Assembly (NCBI GenBank): GCA_019113275.1
Contig: DXHS01000058.1
Span: 1 to 45,448 of the forward strand
DNA length: 45,448 nucleotides
From: Candidatus Protoclostridium stercorigallinarum
Lineage (GTDB): Bacteria > Bacillota > Clostridia > Christensenellales > Pumilibacteraceae
Direction of reading: 5' to 3'
In this document: positions 4,878 to 25,753 of the stretch, piece by piece
Numbering within the stretch: position 1 is the first letter of the stretch
How the letters are laid out: every line of letters begins with the position of its first letter
Program-made: the position numbers and the translations under genes
Notes under the pieces: model-generated
Told to the model about the DNA's origin: nothing
The model's database searches: none
The model's input: only the letters and a program-made list of their open reading frames with translations

Positions 4878-6089
4878 ATGACCAACGCACTTGACATACT
4901 CAGAGAAAGAGGATACGTCGGACAGACGGTATACGAAGAGGACCTTTACAAGATCCTCGGCAGCGAGAAGGTCCCGTTTTATGTGGGCTTCGACCCTACG
5001 GCGGACAGCCTTCACATAGGGCACTATATCCCCATAATGGCGATGGCGCACATGCAGAAATGCGGTCACAAGCCCATCGTCCTCGTGGGCGGCGGAACGG
5101 GCATGATCGGCGACCCTTCGGGGCGCAGCGATCTGCGCAGCATGCTCACTAAAGAGCAGGTGGAGCATAACGTCGCCTGCATAAAAAAGCAGATGGAACG
5201 TTTCCTCTCCTTCGAGGGGGAGAACGGCGCGGTCATCGTCAATAACGCCGACTGGCTGCTCGGGCTCAATTACATCGACTTCCTTCGCGACGTCGGCGTG
5301 TACTTCTCCGTCAACAAGATGCTGACGGCGGAGTGCTTCAAGATACGTTACGAAAAGGGTCTTACGTTCCTCGAATTCAACTACATGCTCATGCAGGCGT
5401 ACGACTTCCTCATGCTTTACAAAAAGTTCGGCTGCCTGCTCGAAATGGGTGGCAACGACCAGTGGAGCAATATCCTCGCGGGCGCGGATCTCATCCGCCG
5501 CAAGGAGAGGAAAGACGCTTTCGCGATAACCTGCCCGCTGCTCCTCAATTCGGACGGCACGAAGATGGGCAAGACCGCCAAAGGCGCGTTGTGGCTTTCC
5601 GCCGAGCGCACCACGCCGTACGAGTTCTACCAGTACTTCCGCAACGTCGAGGACATCAAGACGGAAGAGTGCCTGCGTCTGCTCACGTTCGTTCCGCTGG
5701 ACGAGATAAAAGAGCTCACTAAGTACAACGACGAGCGCATGAACGTCGCCAAAGAGCGCCTTGCATACGAGGTCACCAAGCTCGTGCACGGCGAAGAGGC
5801 GGCGGACAAAGCGCGCGCCGAAGCCAAAGCCGCGTTCGGCGGAAATGCCGAGGATATGCCCGCGGTGAAGGCGGCATGGAGCGGCGATACGCCTGTGACG
5901 GATATCCTTGTCGCGGCGGGAGCATGCTCGTCAAAAAGCGAGGCGCGCAGGCTCATCGAGGGCGGCGGCGTGAAGATAGGCGAGAGCAAGGTGGAAGGCG
6001 TTACCGACGTCGTATCCGCTTACTCGGACGCCGACGAGTTCGTGCTGCACAAGGGCAAGAAGTTCCATGTGCGCGTAGTCCGCGGATGA
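4878..6089 (+). CDS. tyrS: Tyrosine--tRNA ligase
   Basis: YVGFDPTADSLHIGHYIPIMAM (HIGH motif), GNDQWSNILAG, KMGKTAKGALWL, C-terminal S4 domain. Confidence 0.97.
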   Translation: MTNALDILRERGYVGQTVYEEDLYKILGSEKVPFYVGFDPTADSLHIGHYIPIMAMAHMQKCGHKPIVLVGGGTGMIGDPSGRSDLRSMLTKEQVEHNVACIKKQMERFLSFEGENGAVIVNNADWLLGLNYIDFLRDVGVYFSVNKMLTAECFKIRYEKGLTFLEFNYMLMQAYDFLMLYKKFGCLLEMGGNDQWSNILAGADLIRRKERKDAFAITCPLLLNSDGTKMGKTAKGALWLSAERTTPYEFYQYFRNVEDIKTEECLRLLTFVPLDEIKELTKYNDERMNVAKERLAYEVTKLVHGEEAADKARAEAKAAFGGNAEDMPAVKAAWSGDTPVTDILVAAGACSSKSEARRLIEGGGVKIGESKVEGVTDVVSAYSDADEFVLHKGKKFHVRVVRG

Positions 6090-6709
6090 CCGACCGCTAC
6101 GTCACTCTCTCCGATTCCTTTGCGGAGATCGTGATACTTCGCTCGCGTTTTCTCGCTTACGTTTATCATGTCGAGAGCGAGGAAGAGTGTGCGGAAAAGC
6201 TTGCGGCGCTGCGGAAAAAATATTACGACGCCACGCACGTCTGCTACGCGTACTGCGCGGATATCGAAGGGCGGACGATACGTTTTTCGGACGACGGCGA
6301 ACCTTCGTCCACGGCGGGCGCGCCCATACTGTCCGTCATAACCAAGGGCGGATGGAGGCAGGTGCTCATCGCGGTGGTGCGCTATTTCGGCGGCACAAAG
6401 CTGGGCGCCGGCGGGCTCGTAAGAGCGTATACGGACGCGGCGGTAAAAGCGGCGGAAGCCGCCGAAGAAACGGAGATGCGGCTTTGCACCGTGTATTACG
6501 CGGAAACGGATTACAATACGTTCGCGCGGCTGAGCGCGGCGGTGCCGCGTATGGGCGGCAGTATGACGAACGTTTGTTACGGCGAGGGCGTATCGTTCGA
6601 GACGGTCTTCCCGAAAGGTGAGGACAGGACGGCGGCGCTCGCGGATCTTACGGGCGGAAAAACGAAATTTATCCAAAGAGGCGACAGATATGAAATTTAT
6701 CGAGCGTAA
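6086..6709 (+). CDS. YigZ/IMPACT family protein
   Basis: SRFLAYVYHVESEEECAEKLAALRKKYYDATHVCYAY...DDGEPSSTAGAPILSVI...VVRYFGGTKLGAGGLVRAY; ATGA overlap with tyrS. Confidence 0.93.
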   Translation: MTDRYVTLSDSFAEIVILRSRFLAYVYHVESEEECAEKLAALRKKYYDATHVCYAYCADIEGRTIRFSDDGEPSSTAGAPILSVITKGGWRQVLIAVVRYFGGTKLGAGGLVRAYTDAAVKAAEAAEETEMRLCTVYYAETDYNTFARLSAAVPRMGGSMTNVCYGEGVSFETVFPKGEDRTAALADLTGGKTKFIQRGDRYEIYRA

Positions 6710-7745
6710 ACAACTCAAAGAAAGACCTTCCGATCTCGTGTTCGGAAAACATTTCACGGACTATATGTTCATGATGCGCTATCACGACGGCGCCTGGGAT
6801 TACGAGAATGCCTGCATCAAGCCGTACGAACCTTTCGTGCTCGATCCTTCCACTTCCGTGTTCCATTACGGTCAGGCGGTATTCGAGGGGCTCAAAGCAT
6901 ACAGGAACGATAAAGGCGAAGTAAGACTTTTCCGTCCCATGGAAAACATGAAGCGCATGAACGAATCCTGCTGGAGATTGTGCATCCCGCAGTTCGACGC
7001 GAAGTTCGTTCACGACGCTCTCGTCGAGCTCGTGAAAACAGAAAAGGATTGGATCCCTACGGCTCCGGGGACGTCGCTGTATATCCGCCCGTTCGTGATA
7101 GCGACGGATGAAACGCTCGGCGTACACTCTTCCAAAAACTACATCATGGCTATCATACTTTCGCCTGTGGGCGCGTATTACGCTCACGGTTTCGATCCCG
7201 TCAGGCTGTATGTGGAAGAGAATTACAAGCGCGCATGCAAGGGCGGCACGGGACATCATAAGGTGGCGGGCAACTACGCCGCGTCCATCCTCGCCGCAGA
7301 CGAAGCGGAGAAAAAGGGCTACGACCAGACGCTGTGGCTGGACGCCGCCGAGAACAAGTATATGGAAGAAGTGGGTTCGATGAACATCTTCTTCGTCATA
7401 AACGGCAAGGTGGTCACGCCCATGCTCGGCGGATCCATACTCCCGGGCATCACGAGAAGGAGCACGATCGAGCTACTCAAAGCGCGCGGCTACGATGTCG
7501 AGGAACGCCTCGTCAGCGTCAAAGAAGTGGTGGACGCGGCGAAAGACGGCACTCTCGACGAGATATTCGGCACGGGTACCGCGGCGGTCGTTTCTCCTGT
7601 CGGCGAGTTCGGCTACGAGGGCAAGGACTACAAAGTAGGCGACGGTAAGCTGGGCAGGATAACAAAGTACGTTTACGACGAGCTTACCGGCATACAGACG
7701 GGCGCTAAACCCGACGAGTTCGGCTGGGTGGAGCGCATAGTATAA
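6690..7745 (+). CDS. ilvE: Branched-chain amino acid aminotransferase
   Basis: VFHYGQAVFEGLKAYR, GTGHHKVAGNYAASI, EVGSMNIFFV, GSILPGITRRSTIELL. Confidence 0.93.
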   Translation: MKFIERKQLKERPSDLVFGKHFTDYMFMMRYHDGAWDYENACIKPYEPFVLDPSTSVFHYGQAVFEGLKAYRNDKGEVRLFRPMENMKRMNESCWRLCIPQFDAKFVHDALVELVKTEKDWIPTAPGTSLYIRPFVIATDETLGVHSSKNYIMAIILSPVGAYYAHGFDPVRLYVEENYKRACKGGTGHHKVAGNYAASILAADEAEKKGYDQTLWLDAAENKYMEEVGSMNIFFVINGKVVTPMLGGSILPGITRRSTIELLKARGYDVEERLVSVKEVVDAAKDGTLDEIFGTGTAAVVSPVGEFGYEGKDYKVGDGKLGRITKYVYDELTGIQTGAKPDEFGWVERIV

Positions 7746-22588: not shown

Positions 22589-22876
22589 ATGGCAAAGATA
22601 TACGACCCTACGGACATCAAAAATCTGCATAACAGACTGAATAAGCTGATGGGGCAGATGAAGGCGATAGACAGGATGATAGACGAAGGCATAAGCAGCG
22701 AGGACCTCATCATACAGGTCAATTCCGTAAAATCGGCTATGCACAGCTTCGGGCGCGCCGTGATGGAAAAGGAGCTCGCCGAGTCCATGAAAAAATGCGC
22801 CGAAGGCGAAGATCCCGATACGGTGTTCGCGGAGTTCCGCGCTCTTGTCGGCCGCTTCTCTGACTTGTCTAAATAA
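22589..22876 (+). CDS. CsoR/FrmR-family (DUF156) helical repressor
   Basis: LHNRLNKLMGQMKAIDRMIDEGISSEDLIIQVNSVKSAMHSFGRAVMEKELAESM matches the fold pattern. Confidence 0.85.
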   Translation: MAKIYDPTDIKNLHNRLNKLMGQMKAIDRMIDEGISSEDLIIQVNSVKSAMHSFGRAVMEKELAESMKKCAEGEDPDTVFAEFRALVGRFSDLSK

Positions 22877-22942: not shown

Positions 22943-23317
22943 TTATATACTGTTCTTGTATTCAGTGCCCCAATCGAACATGGCGTCAAGGATGGGTTTC
23001 AATGTTTTGCCGAGGTCGGACAGGGAATAGACGACGCGCGGCGGGACTTCCGCGAACACTTCGCGTTCGATGAGCCCGTCGCTTTCCAGCGCCCGCAGAT
23101 TGTCCGTCAGCACTTTTTTGCTGATGCCGGGAATGGTCTTGGGAAAATCGGTGAACCGCTGCGCTCCGTTATAGATGAGATTGCGAAGGATAAGCAGTTT
23201 CCATTTATTGCCGATGAGCTGTACCGTCGTTGCCACGGGGCATTCGGGCAATTCTTCTTTTGCCAGCATAATAAGCGCTCCTTTTTTCTTTATATTATAG
23301 CAAGAGCGTCTTGACAA
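22943..23317 (-). CDS. HxlR family transcriptional regulator
   Basis: ECPVATTVQLIGNKWKLLILRNLIYNGAQRFTDFPKTIPGISKKVLTDNLRALESDGLIER. Confidence 0.95.
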   Translation of the reverse strand: MSRRSCYNIKKKGALIMLAKEELPECPVATTVQLIGNKWKLLILRNLIYNGAQRFTDFPKTIPGISKKVLTDNLRALESDGLIEREVFAEVPPRVVYSLSDLGKTLKPILDAMFDWGTEYKNSI

Positions 23318-23322
23318 GTCAA
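23294..23322 (-). promoter_or_regulatory. Promoter for hxlR-type gene
   Basis: Minus strand TTGACT-17 nt-TATAAT. Confidence 0.6.
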
Positions 23323-23340
23323 TAGTTCAAAAACGAAACC

Positions 23341-23379
23341 AAGTAACAAATCTATTATCAAATAATAGAAAGGTAACTT
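23341..23379. promoter_or_regulatory. Operator-like imperfect dyad in HxlR/oxidoreductase intergenic region
   Basis: AAGTAAC...TCTATTAT-caa-ATAATAGA...GTAACTT. Confidence 0.55.
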
Positions 23380-23462
23380 CCGAGAAAAATTTTTCCGCAT
23401 TTGTTATACTGTGCCCGTGATCGGAAAGGTCACTGAAACAAAATAATTTCGGAGGTATCATT

Positions 23463-24101
23463 ATGAAAAAAGTAGCTGTCATTTGTGCGGCAGGCAAACA
23501 GGGTAAACTGCTCGTAAACGAGGCGGTTTCCCGCGGGTATGATGTGACGGGTTTCGTGCGCGGGAACGGTAAGGTAGAAAACGCCAAGGCAAAGACGGTC
23601 GTCAAAGACCTGTTCGATCTGACGCGTGAGGACCTTATCGAGTTCGACGTCGTTATCGACGCATTCGGCGCGTGGATGCCCGAAACCCTTCCTCTCCATA
23701 AGACGTCGCTCAAACATCTTTGCGATATCCTGAGCGGAACGAAAGTCCGTCTACTCGTCGTTGGCGGCGCGGGCAGCTTGTATGCAGATACCGAACACAC
23801 CGTGCAGGTCAAAGACTTAGAGAGCTTCCCCGACGTGTTCAAGCCGCTGGCAAACAACATGGGCGAGGCTCTCGCAGAACTTCGTAAGCGTTCTGATGTG
23901 CTGTGGACGTACCTCTCGCCCGCGGGCGACTTCGTAGCGGACGGCGAACGAACGGGCGAATACCTTCTCGGCGGCGAGAACTACTTCGTCAACGATAAGG
24001 GAGAGAGCCGTATCGGCTATGCCGATTACGCCATCGCGATGATCGACGAGATAGAAAACGCAAACAACATTCAGAAGCGTTTTTCCGTCATCGGGAAGTA
24101 A
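23463..24101 (+). CDS. NAD(P)H-binding / NAD-dependent epimerase-dehydratase family protein
   Basis: KKVAVICAAGKQGKLLVNEAVSRGYDVTGFVR, VVIDAFGAW, LLVVGGAGSLY. Confidence 0.9.
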   Translation: MKKVAVICAAGKQGKLLVNEAVSRGYDVTGFVRGNGKVENAKAKTVVKDLFDLTREDLIEFDVVIDAFGAWMPETLPLHKTSLKHLCDILSGTKVRLLVVGGAGSLYADTEHTVQVKDLESFPDVFKPLANNMGEALAELRKRSDVLWTYLSPAGDFVADGERTGEYLLGGENYFVNDKGESRIGYADYAIAMIDEIENANNIQKRFSVIGK

Positions 24102-24171
24102 TACGGGCAATATACAGCGACAGGCGCGGTCGTTTCGATCGCGCTTGCGCCGTTTCGTAAAGGAGGATCGA

Positions 24172-24933
24172 ATGCAGACCACTCTCGACAGATTGATACA
24201 AATCCTCTGTGAGGAGCGCGGCGAAGCCGTCCCGTCCCTTACGGATGAACAAAAGCCGGATCTTTTTCGTGCGCTCTGCAATGTGCGCCCGCCCATGCCG
24301 GCAACGAAAGAGTTTTTGCGCTTACAGGACGAATATCTGTCGCAAAAAACAAAAGAGCGCGGCATCGTCGACGTGAACGGCTTTGTTTACCGGGACGGCA
24401 TTGCCTTATGGCGGGGCGATATCACGAGGCTGAACGCAGACGCCATAGTAAACGCCTGCAACCCCGCGCTCCTCGGTTGTTTTCATCCGCTCCATAATTG
24501 TATAGATAACGTCATCCATTCTGCGGCAGGCGTTCGGGTGCGGCTGGATTGCGATAAGCTCATGAAAGGCGGGCGGGAGCCGAACGGGCAGGTGAAAGTG
24601 ACAAAGGCGTATAATCTGCCGTCGCGCTATATTTTCCATACCGTCGGTCCCGTCGTCCGCGGCAGCGTGACCGGGCAGGACCGTCGCGATCTTGCAAACT
24701 GTTATCTGTCCTGCCTGAACGAAGCGTCCGGAATGAAACTCTCAACGATCGCTTTTTGCTGCATTTCTACGGGCGAATATCGTTACCCCAAGGACGAAGC
24801 CTGCGCTCTTGCCGTGCAGACGGTCAAACAATGGAAGTCGGAGACGGGCAGTCCGTTAAAAATCATTTTCAACGTGTTTTTGAAGGAGGATGAAGTGCTG
24901 TATGAAAGAGAACTTTTCGGACAGGATAAATAA
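24172..24933 (+). CDS. Zn-dependent macrodomain protein-ADP-ribose hydrolase
   Basis: LWRGDITRLNADAIVNACNPALLGCFHPLHNCIDNVIHSAAG (C-x4-H-x-C), YIFHTVGPVV, IAFCCISTGEYRYPKDEA. Confidence 0.92.
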   Translation: MQTTLDRLIQILCEERGEAVPSLTDEQKPDLFRALCNVRPPMPATKEFLRLQDEYLSQKTKERGIVDVNGFVYRDGIALWRGDITRLNADAIVNACNPALLGCFHPLHNCIDNVIHSAAGVRVRLDCDKLMKGGREPNGQVKVTKAYNLPSRYIFHTVGPVVRGSVTGQDRRDLANCYLSCLNEASGMKLSTIAFCCISTGEYRYPKDEACALAVQTVKQWKSETGSPLKIIFNVFLKEDEVLYERELFGQDK

Positions 24934-25753
24934 ACTGCGCTCGCTTCTCGAAGACGCGGAATGCGTGCTCATCGGCGGCGGCTCGGGGCTTTCGTCCGCT
25001 GCGGGTCTGACTTATTCGGGAAAACGTTTTACCGCAAATTTCGGCGACTTTATTGCGCTGTATGATCTTACGGATATGTATTCCGCGGGATTTTATCCGT
25101 TCAAAACACAGGAAGAAAAATGGGCTTATTGGTCGAGGCATATCCTGCTCAACCGTTGGCAGCCGTCCGCATTGCCGTTATATAAAACGTTGCTCGGAAT
25201 CGTCGGAGATAAAGATTGTTTCGTTATCACCACAAATGTGGACGCGCAGTTTTATAAGGCGGGTTTCGATCCCGATCGTATCTTTGCCGTGCAGGGCGAT
25301 TACGGAAAACTTCAATGCGCAAAGGGCTGTCACGATACTCTGTACGATAACGAAAGCCTTGTCCGCAGGATGGCTGTGGAGCAACGTGATTGCCGTATCC
25401 CGTCCTCTCTCGTACCGAAGTGCCCCGTGTGCGGGGGAGAAGCGGAAGTCAATATCCGCAAGGATATATACTTCGTGCAGGACAAAGCGTGGTACGAAGC
25501 GGCGCGGCGCTACGAAAGTTTCCGAGACAAAGCGCGCGGCAAAAAGACCGTACTTCTCGAACTCGGCGTCGGCTACAATACTCCGACGATCATACGCTTT
25601 CCCTTTGAGCGTATGGTGTACGAAAACGACGACGTATACCTCGTCCGCGTAAACAGGCAATACGGCGGAGCCATACCCGAAAATGCAGAAAAGACGCTTT
25701 CTTTCGACGAGGATATAAGTCTTGTGTTGAGCGAGCTCTCTCGCCATTCGTAA
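24902..25753 (+). CDS. SIR2 family protein, class M sirtuin-like (SirTM, protein ADP-ribosyltransferase type)
   Basis: VLIGGGSGLSSAAGLTYSG, FVITTNVDAQFYKAGFDPDRIFAVQGDYGKLQC (VQG at the usual His-Gly position), CPVCGG; overlaps the macrodomain gene. Confidence 0.9.
   Translation: MKENFSDRINKLRSLLEDAECVLIGGGSGLSSAAGLTYSGKRFTANFGDFIALYDLTDMYSAGFYPFKTQEEKWAYWSRHILLNRWQPSALPLYKTLLGIVGDKDCFVITTNVDAQFYKAGFDPDRIFAVQGDYGKLQCAKGCHDTLYDNESLVRRMAVEQRDCRIPSSLVPKCPVCGGEAEVNIRKDIYFVQDKAWYEAARRYESFRDKARGKKTVLLELGVGYNTPTIIRFPFERMVYENDDVYLVRVNRQYGGAIPENAEKTLSFDEDISLVLSELSRHS

Follow-up and report, generated by a model that had tools for sequence, protein, structure and literature searches.

Class M sirtuins (SirTM) and Zn-macrodomain proteins (Zn-Macro) are known from the extended operons of Staphylococcaceae and Lactobacillales, in which the pair is associated with oxidoreductases and accompanied by a lipoyl carrier (GcvH-L), the lipoate ligase LplA2, LLM and OYE (PMC4518038). 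Independent or minimal SirTM/macro operons have also been published (PMC4518038, PMC11490716); in the minimal operon of Methanobrevibacter oralis the Zn-Macro and SirTM genes are adjacent and neither GcvH-L nor LplA2 is present (PMC11490716). The same two domains are joined in the fungal Mfs1 macrodomain-SirTM fusions (8rsn). The targets of the other SirTM/Zn-Macro systems were stated in the 2024 literature to be unknown (PMC11490716).

The window analysed here is the whole 45,448 nt stretch of contig DXHS01000058.1 from Candidatus Protoclostridium stercorigallinarum, the genome of which is 1.65 Mb in 122 contigs and 86% complete. It contains genes for an HxlR regulator, an NAD(P)-binding protein, a macrodomain and a sirtuin where a sequence-only reading had placed them (Table 1). 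The reading frame of hxlR extends over 22943-23317 in full, with the likely ATG start at 23269. The macrodomain and SirTM genes overlap, as that reading had also noted, by 44 nt, or by 32 nt if SirTM starts at the alternative ATG at 24902, which would give a protein of 283 aa. Just upstream of the module, at 22589-22876, is a gene for a CsoR/DUF156-family metal-type repressor. CsoR as a dedicated partner was rejected because no CsoR was found near any other SirTM locus.

Table 1. Features of the regulator, slot gene, Zn-Macro and SirTM module (positions in the window)
Feature	Position	Strand	Basis
HxlR/DUF24-family regulator, 108 aa	22943-23269	-	Pfam HxlR 1.3e-32; 4a5m alignment
hxlR promoter-like site TTGACT-17-TATAAT	23294-23322	-	11/12 consensus matches; consensus match only
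Putative HxlR operator GTAACAAATCTATTATCAAATAATAGAAAGGTAAC	23343-23377	+	Kept in relatives with differing downstream genes
Putative -10 (TATACT) of the operon promoter	23405-23410	+	Conserved in footprint alignment; inferred
NmrA/NADH-flavin-reductase-like NAD(P)H-binding protein (slot gene)	23463-24101	+	Pfam NAD_binding_10 2.7e-13; 4r01
Stable RNA hairpin in the gap between slot gene and macrodomain gene	24102-24159	+	-28.6 kcal/mol, z -2.66
Zn-macrodomain (predicted protein-ADP-ribose hydrolase), 253 aa	24172-24933	+	NCBIfam PRK04143; 8rsi
Zn-loop codons CFHPLHNC (C-x4-H-x-C)	24478-24501	+	Sequence
Class M sirtuin (SirTM), 287 aa	24890-25753	+	5a3a; catalytic Gln

Judged by its sequence, the pair in the window is of the minimal, non-extended SirTM/Zn-Macro type, a kind already published. 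It resembles the M. oralis operon in its adjacent Zn-Macro and SirTM genes and in lacking GcvH-L and LplA2, but adds an oxidoreductase-like gene, here called the slot gene, and a divergently oriented HxlR gene with a conserved putative operator. With the extended operon it shares SirTM, Zn-Macro and the association with an oxidoreductase, whereas the lipoyl carrier, LplA2, LLM and OYE are missing. In a SirTM tree the extended-operon proteins of Streptococcus pyogenes and Aerococcus formed one long branch apart from the window clade (n=2; the root of the tree and the exact attachment are unresolved). Unlike in Mfs1, the two domains are encoded by separate, overlapping genes, and 8rsn matched only at 1.3e-37 (macrodomain) and 3.4e-30 (sirtuin). 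We consider it probable that the locus is a dedicated, HxlR-controlled stress operon in which this minimal-type pair carries out reversible, lipoyl-independent ADP-ribosylation.

Family membership and catalytic residues confirmed the sirtuin as a SirTM, as had been proposed from the lack of a catalytic His. The closest solved structure is the S. pyogenes SirTM (5a3a, 1.4e-57), and Gln135 replaces the catalytic His, giving QG instead of HG; in a 98-sequence alignment this position was Gln in all 96 sequences that covered it. The SirTM residues reported in addition to the catalytic Gln (PMC4518038) are also present, with Asn116, Arg190, Asn255 and GVGYNTP as the counterparts of Asn118, Arg192, Asn258 and GVGx[NT]TP (S. 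pyogenes numbering), together with the four zinc Cys. An ordinary deacetylase was rejected, as the catalytic His is missing and Pfam Sir2 had no match to the protein.

The macrodomain likewise proved to be a Zn-Macro, as its C-x4-H-x-C signature had suggested. It scored 301 bits against NCBIfam PRK04143 (cut-off 272), and its closest solved structure is the M. oralis Zn-Macro (MorMacro, 8rsi, 9e-71), with which the N-terminal extension of about 75 residues also aligns. The zinc loop is C103-x4-H108-x-C110, a motif found in 90/90 macrodomains examined, and the Dx3H dyad is present (CIDNVIH). The NAAN motif reported for Zn-Macros (PMC11490716) is replaced by NACN, a one-residue variant, in the window protein and in one other locus (L128), and Zn-Macro membership was kept despite this variant as every other feature is present. 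At the positive patch by which macrodomains of extended operons bind GcvH-L, the window protein appeared basic at two of the three positions, read by eye from alignments.

The sequence-only reading had noted that GcvH-L and LplA2 are missing from the window, which is the case. When the search was extended to the whole 86%-complete genome, the Pfam models GCV_H and LplA-B_cat found no match; the test is valid because the GCV_H and LplA models recognise the true GcvH-L and LplA2 of the Aerococcus extended operon, which served as a positive control. The sole Biotin_lipoyl match in the genome is a biotin carrier with AMKM, and its gene adjoins an apparent decarboxylase beta subunit gene (named by eye). 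The absence had further been taken as unusual, on the premise that the pair usually occurs with GcvH-L. This premise was wrong for the group surveyed, since minimal operons had already been published (PMC4518038, PMC11490716) and none of the genomes surveyed had a GcvH match beside SirTM. In the plasmid collection, 2/6 records read had GcvH-L beside SirTM.

With the assembly in 122 contigs and incomplete, a GcvH-L/LplA2 pair that supplies the substrate could in principle be encoded in the 14% of the genome that the assembly lacks, but we find this hardly credible. Relatives that are 95-100% complete lack GcvH too, among them G180 (95% complete, with a SirTM 75% identical), G140 from the same genus and the single-contig genomes G033, G031 and G054; in G180, G140 and G033 LplA is also absent. 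Nor were SirTM and GcvH associated across 200 genomes of the order, GcvH being found in 10/41 SirTM-positive and 52/159 SirTM-negative genomes (p 0.35). The corresponding figures for Zn-Macro were 40/41 and 2/159 (p 1.7e-38). This near-complete co-occurrence with Zn-Macro and the lack of enrichment for GcvH point to a SirTM/Zn-Macro pair that is independent of GcvH in the order surveyed, which fits the failure of MorMacro to demodify GcvH-L (PMC11490716). The earlier suggestion that the substrate differs is supported.

SirTM loci with no adjacent macrodomain gene do exist. However, all 13 such genomes checked hold a Zn-Macro elsewhere, and a true macro-less SirTM lineage was rejected on these grounds. 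The macrodomain gene was found 4 kb from SirTM on the same contig in G064, and beside a second SirTM in G010 and in G215 (locus L138). The only SirTM genome lacking a full-length macrodomain match (G108) has a partial one adjoining SirTM at a contig edge. In G140 the module is split, with Rrf2, NmrA and macrodomain genes in L128 (contig C10) and HxlR and SirTM genes in L102 (contig C28).

Where Zn-Macro was unlinked, a gene for a YbhJ-like aconitase-family hydratase (NCBIfam PRK11413, 1179 bits) was immediately upstream in 7/11 loci fetched, often overlapping the macrodomain gene by 4 nt. These loci, L129-L134 and L137, have no SirTM linkage (the L131 macrodomain gene is at 5936-6664 on the minus strand), and the hydratase-linked macrodomains fall in one well-supported clade of 10 rows. 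The hydratase neighbourhood seems to be a second, metabolic-looking context for Zn-Macro. In Mesomycoplasma hyorhinis (L141) an operon of LLM, GcvH-L, SirTM, LplA2 and OYE-type genes includes no macrodomain gene.

A writer that is almost never found in a genome without its eraser, a patchy distribution and the existence of plasmid copies are all features that a DarT/DarG-like toxin-antitoxin or anti-phage module would show, with SirTM as the toxin and Zn-Macro as the antidote. This is nevertheless very unlikely. PADLOC gave no match for SirTM, Zn-Macro or the slot protein, the eraser is not always linked and, when it is not, frequently accompanies the metabolic hydratase, the regulator is of a redox type, and the M. 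hyorhinis extended operon has no macrodomain gene inside it. Among the plasmid loci is one from Roseburia (L144, 1135-5885) in which a divergent regulator and a repeat-peptide RiPP cassette precede SirTM/Zn-Macro; the cassette is annotated as ACGX peptide (acgA), radical SAM (acgM) and nitroreductase. Genes similar to this cassette were found in the Bacteroidales loci L069 and L087 by our own gene calls.

Cys10 of the window HxlR (numbered from the ATG at 23269) corresponds in alignment to Cys14 of Bacillus subtilis HypR/YybR (4a5m), which is modified by allicin in that organism (PMC6943732). In HypR, YodB and CatR an N-terminal Cys serves to detect oxidants and quinones, while HxlR of B. subtilis is said to be more specific to the detoxification of aldehydes (PMC6943732). 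The window regulator has the HxlR fold and the aligned Cys in common with these DUF24 redox regulators, but its partner is an ADP-ribosylation pair and not just a nitroreductase or azoreductase. An N-terminal Cys was found in 47/47 SirTM-linked HxlRs; it is a general trait of the DUF24/HxlR family, and permits redox sensing without proving it. Given the aldehyde specificity stated for the B. subtilis protein, carbonyl electrophiles are as likely an inducer as oxidants.

The survey of gene order placed HxlR upstream and divergent in 44/81 loci with enough flank, drawn from genome collections and plasmids, and downstream in 2/82; the gene separating HxlR from the pair varied. For about 46% of loci the survey detected no upstream HxlR, and either Rrf2 or nothing recognisable was there, though these neighbour counts come from tblastn with the window proteins, which may miss diverged HxlRs, and from mechanical gene calls. 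Across 30 genomes of the order, 19 of the 28 true HxlR genes (E below 1e-20) were within 5 kb of SirTM, as was the HxlR gene in 16/19 genomes that have only one. The linkage recurs in Clostridia, Bacteroidales, Paenibacillus, Desulfosporosinus, Raoultibacter and Methanobrevibacter, and no mention of it was found in the open-access papers searched.

Adjoining the strong promoter-like site of hxlR is a putative operator of 35 bp, in which an inverted repeat (TCTATTATcaaATAATAGA) of the form TCTATTAT-CAA-ATAATAGA has GTAAC flanks; a TATACT box follows 27 nt downstream. The putative operator is conserved whether an NmrA-like or a cupin gene comes next. When this pattern was searched for in 10 genomes, seven had exactly one match, each on the SirTM contig and beside hxlR, whereas the reversed control pattern had none; zero matches were expected in the window. 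No match within 3 mismatches was found in G140, G076 or G208. The divergent HxlR with its conserved putative operator appears to be a new part of the system. Taken with the Cys present in every linked HxlR and aligned with HypR Cys14, the operator lends support to the redox control that had been suggested from the N-terminal Cys.

Two observations would suit a regulator that controls the slot gene only, with the pair co-travelling by chance and SirTM and Zn-Macro expressed by read-through. HxlR genes are common beside oxidoreductase genes, and a stable hairpin separates the slot gene from the macrodomain gene; the hairpin has no U-run, and a similar sequence is present in locus L036. An Rfam search gave no match. 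We consider such slot-only regulation improbable, as in Methanobrevibacter, Eisenbergiella-type loci and G140 the slot gene is missing and the immediate neighbour of HxlR is Macro-SirTM or SirTM, and the same putative operator stands ahead of different slot genes. Control of the whole operon by HxlR is the reading that we prefer.

The closest solved structure to the slot protein is 4r01, a 'putative NADH-flavin reductase' (1.5e-63). Depending on the locus, the slot between HxlR and Macro-SirTM is occupied by an NmrA-like protein, Cupin_2, PNPOx-ferredoxin, a zinc-type (quinone-oxidoreductase-like) dehydrogenase, a 287-aa protein labelled MBL by eye but with no match in Pfam or NCBIfam, or a radical SAM protein (identified by eye and by the annotation of the Roseburia locus), or there is no gene. 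Within the window's own SirTM clade NmrA, cupin and PNPOx-ferredoxin were all found. On the SirTM tree slot identity changed at least 16 times and macrodomain adjacency at least nine times; the slot labels are mechanical and the trees are quick searches, so these counts are rough. One such exchange has left a junction in L036, where a chimeric 70-residue frame (6978-7190) begins with 28 residues that match a SirTM N-terminus like that of the cupin-SirTM locus L033, and continues with about 42 residues of an NmrA-like C-terminus. This is direct evidence that a left half of HxlR, operator and cupin recombined onto an NmrA-Macro-SirTM locus.

These exchanges bear on the role of the NAD(P)-binding protein, which had been put forward as a candidate partner. 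It is encoded immediately upstream in the same operon, and GcvH-L, the substrate in extended operons and the sole target known for such pairs, is also an operon neighbour, so that it could be the dedicated ADP-ribosylation substrate. The candidacy is weakened by the close relatives that hold a cupin, PNPOx-ferredoxin or nothing in its place, by the number of slot changes on the tree, and by the L036 junction, in which the slot was exchanged and Macro-SirTM retained. The free exchange of the slot makes a dedicated substrate there unlikely, albeit by an indirect argument, and the substrate is most likely a common cellular protein encoded elsewhere.

In the operon as we envisage it, HxlR would at rest occupy the putative operator, which has one of the divergent promoters on either side. 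Modification of the N-terminal Cys of HxlR by oxidants or electrophiles would alter transcription of hxlR and of the operon, which would yield the oxidoreductase-like slot protein, the eraser and the writer. SirTM would then use NAD+ to mono-ADP-ribosylate a protein other than lipoylated GcvH-L, and Zn-Macro would remove the mark.

More tentatively, and with the balance at present somewhat against it, SirTM/Zn-Macro may originally have been a lipoyl-independent switch for thiol or electrophile stress, served by an HxlR regulon of its own and carrying redox cargo that can be exchanged. The variant with GcvH-L/LplA2, studied in Staphylococcus aureus and S. pyogenes, would then be a derived offshoot, and the true substrate, itself widespread, would still await discovery. 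SirTM genomes that have no detectable GcvH or lipoate ligase but do have a dedicated regulator and a putative operator would offer a clean route to the target of SirTM.
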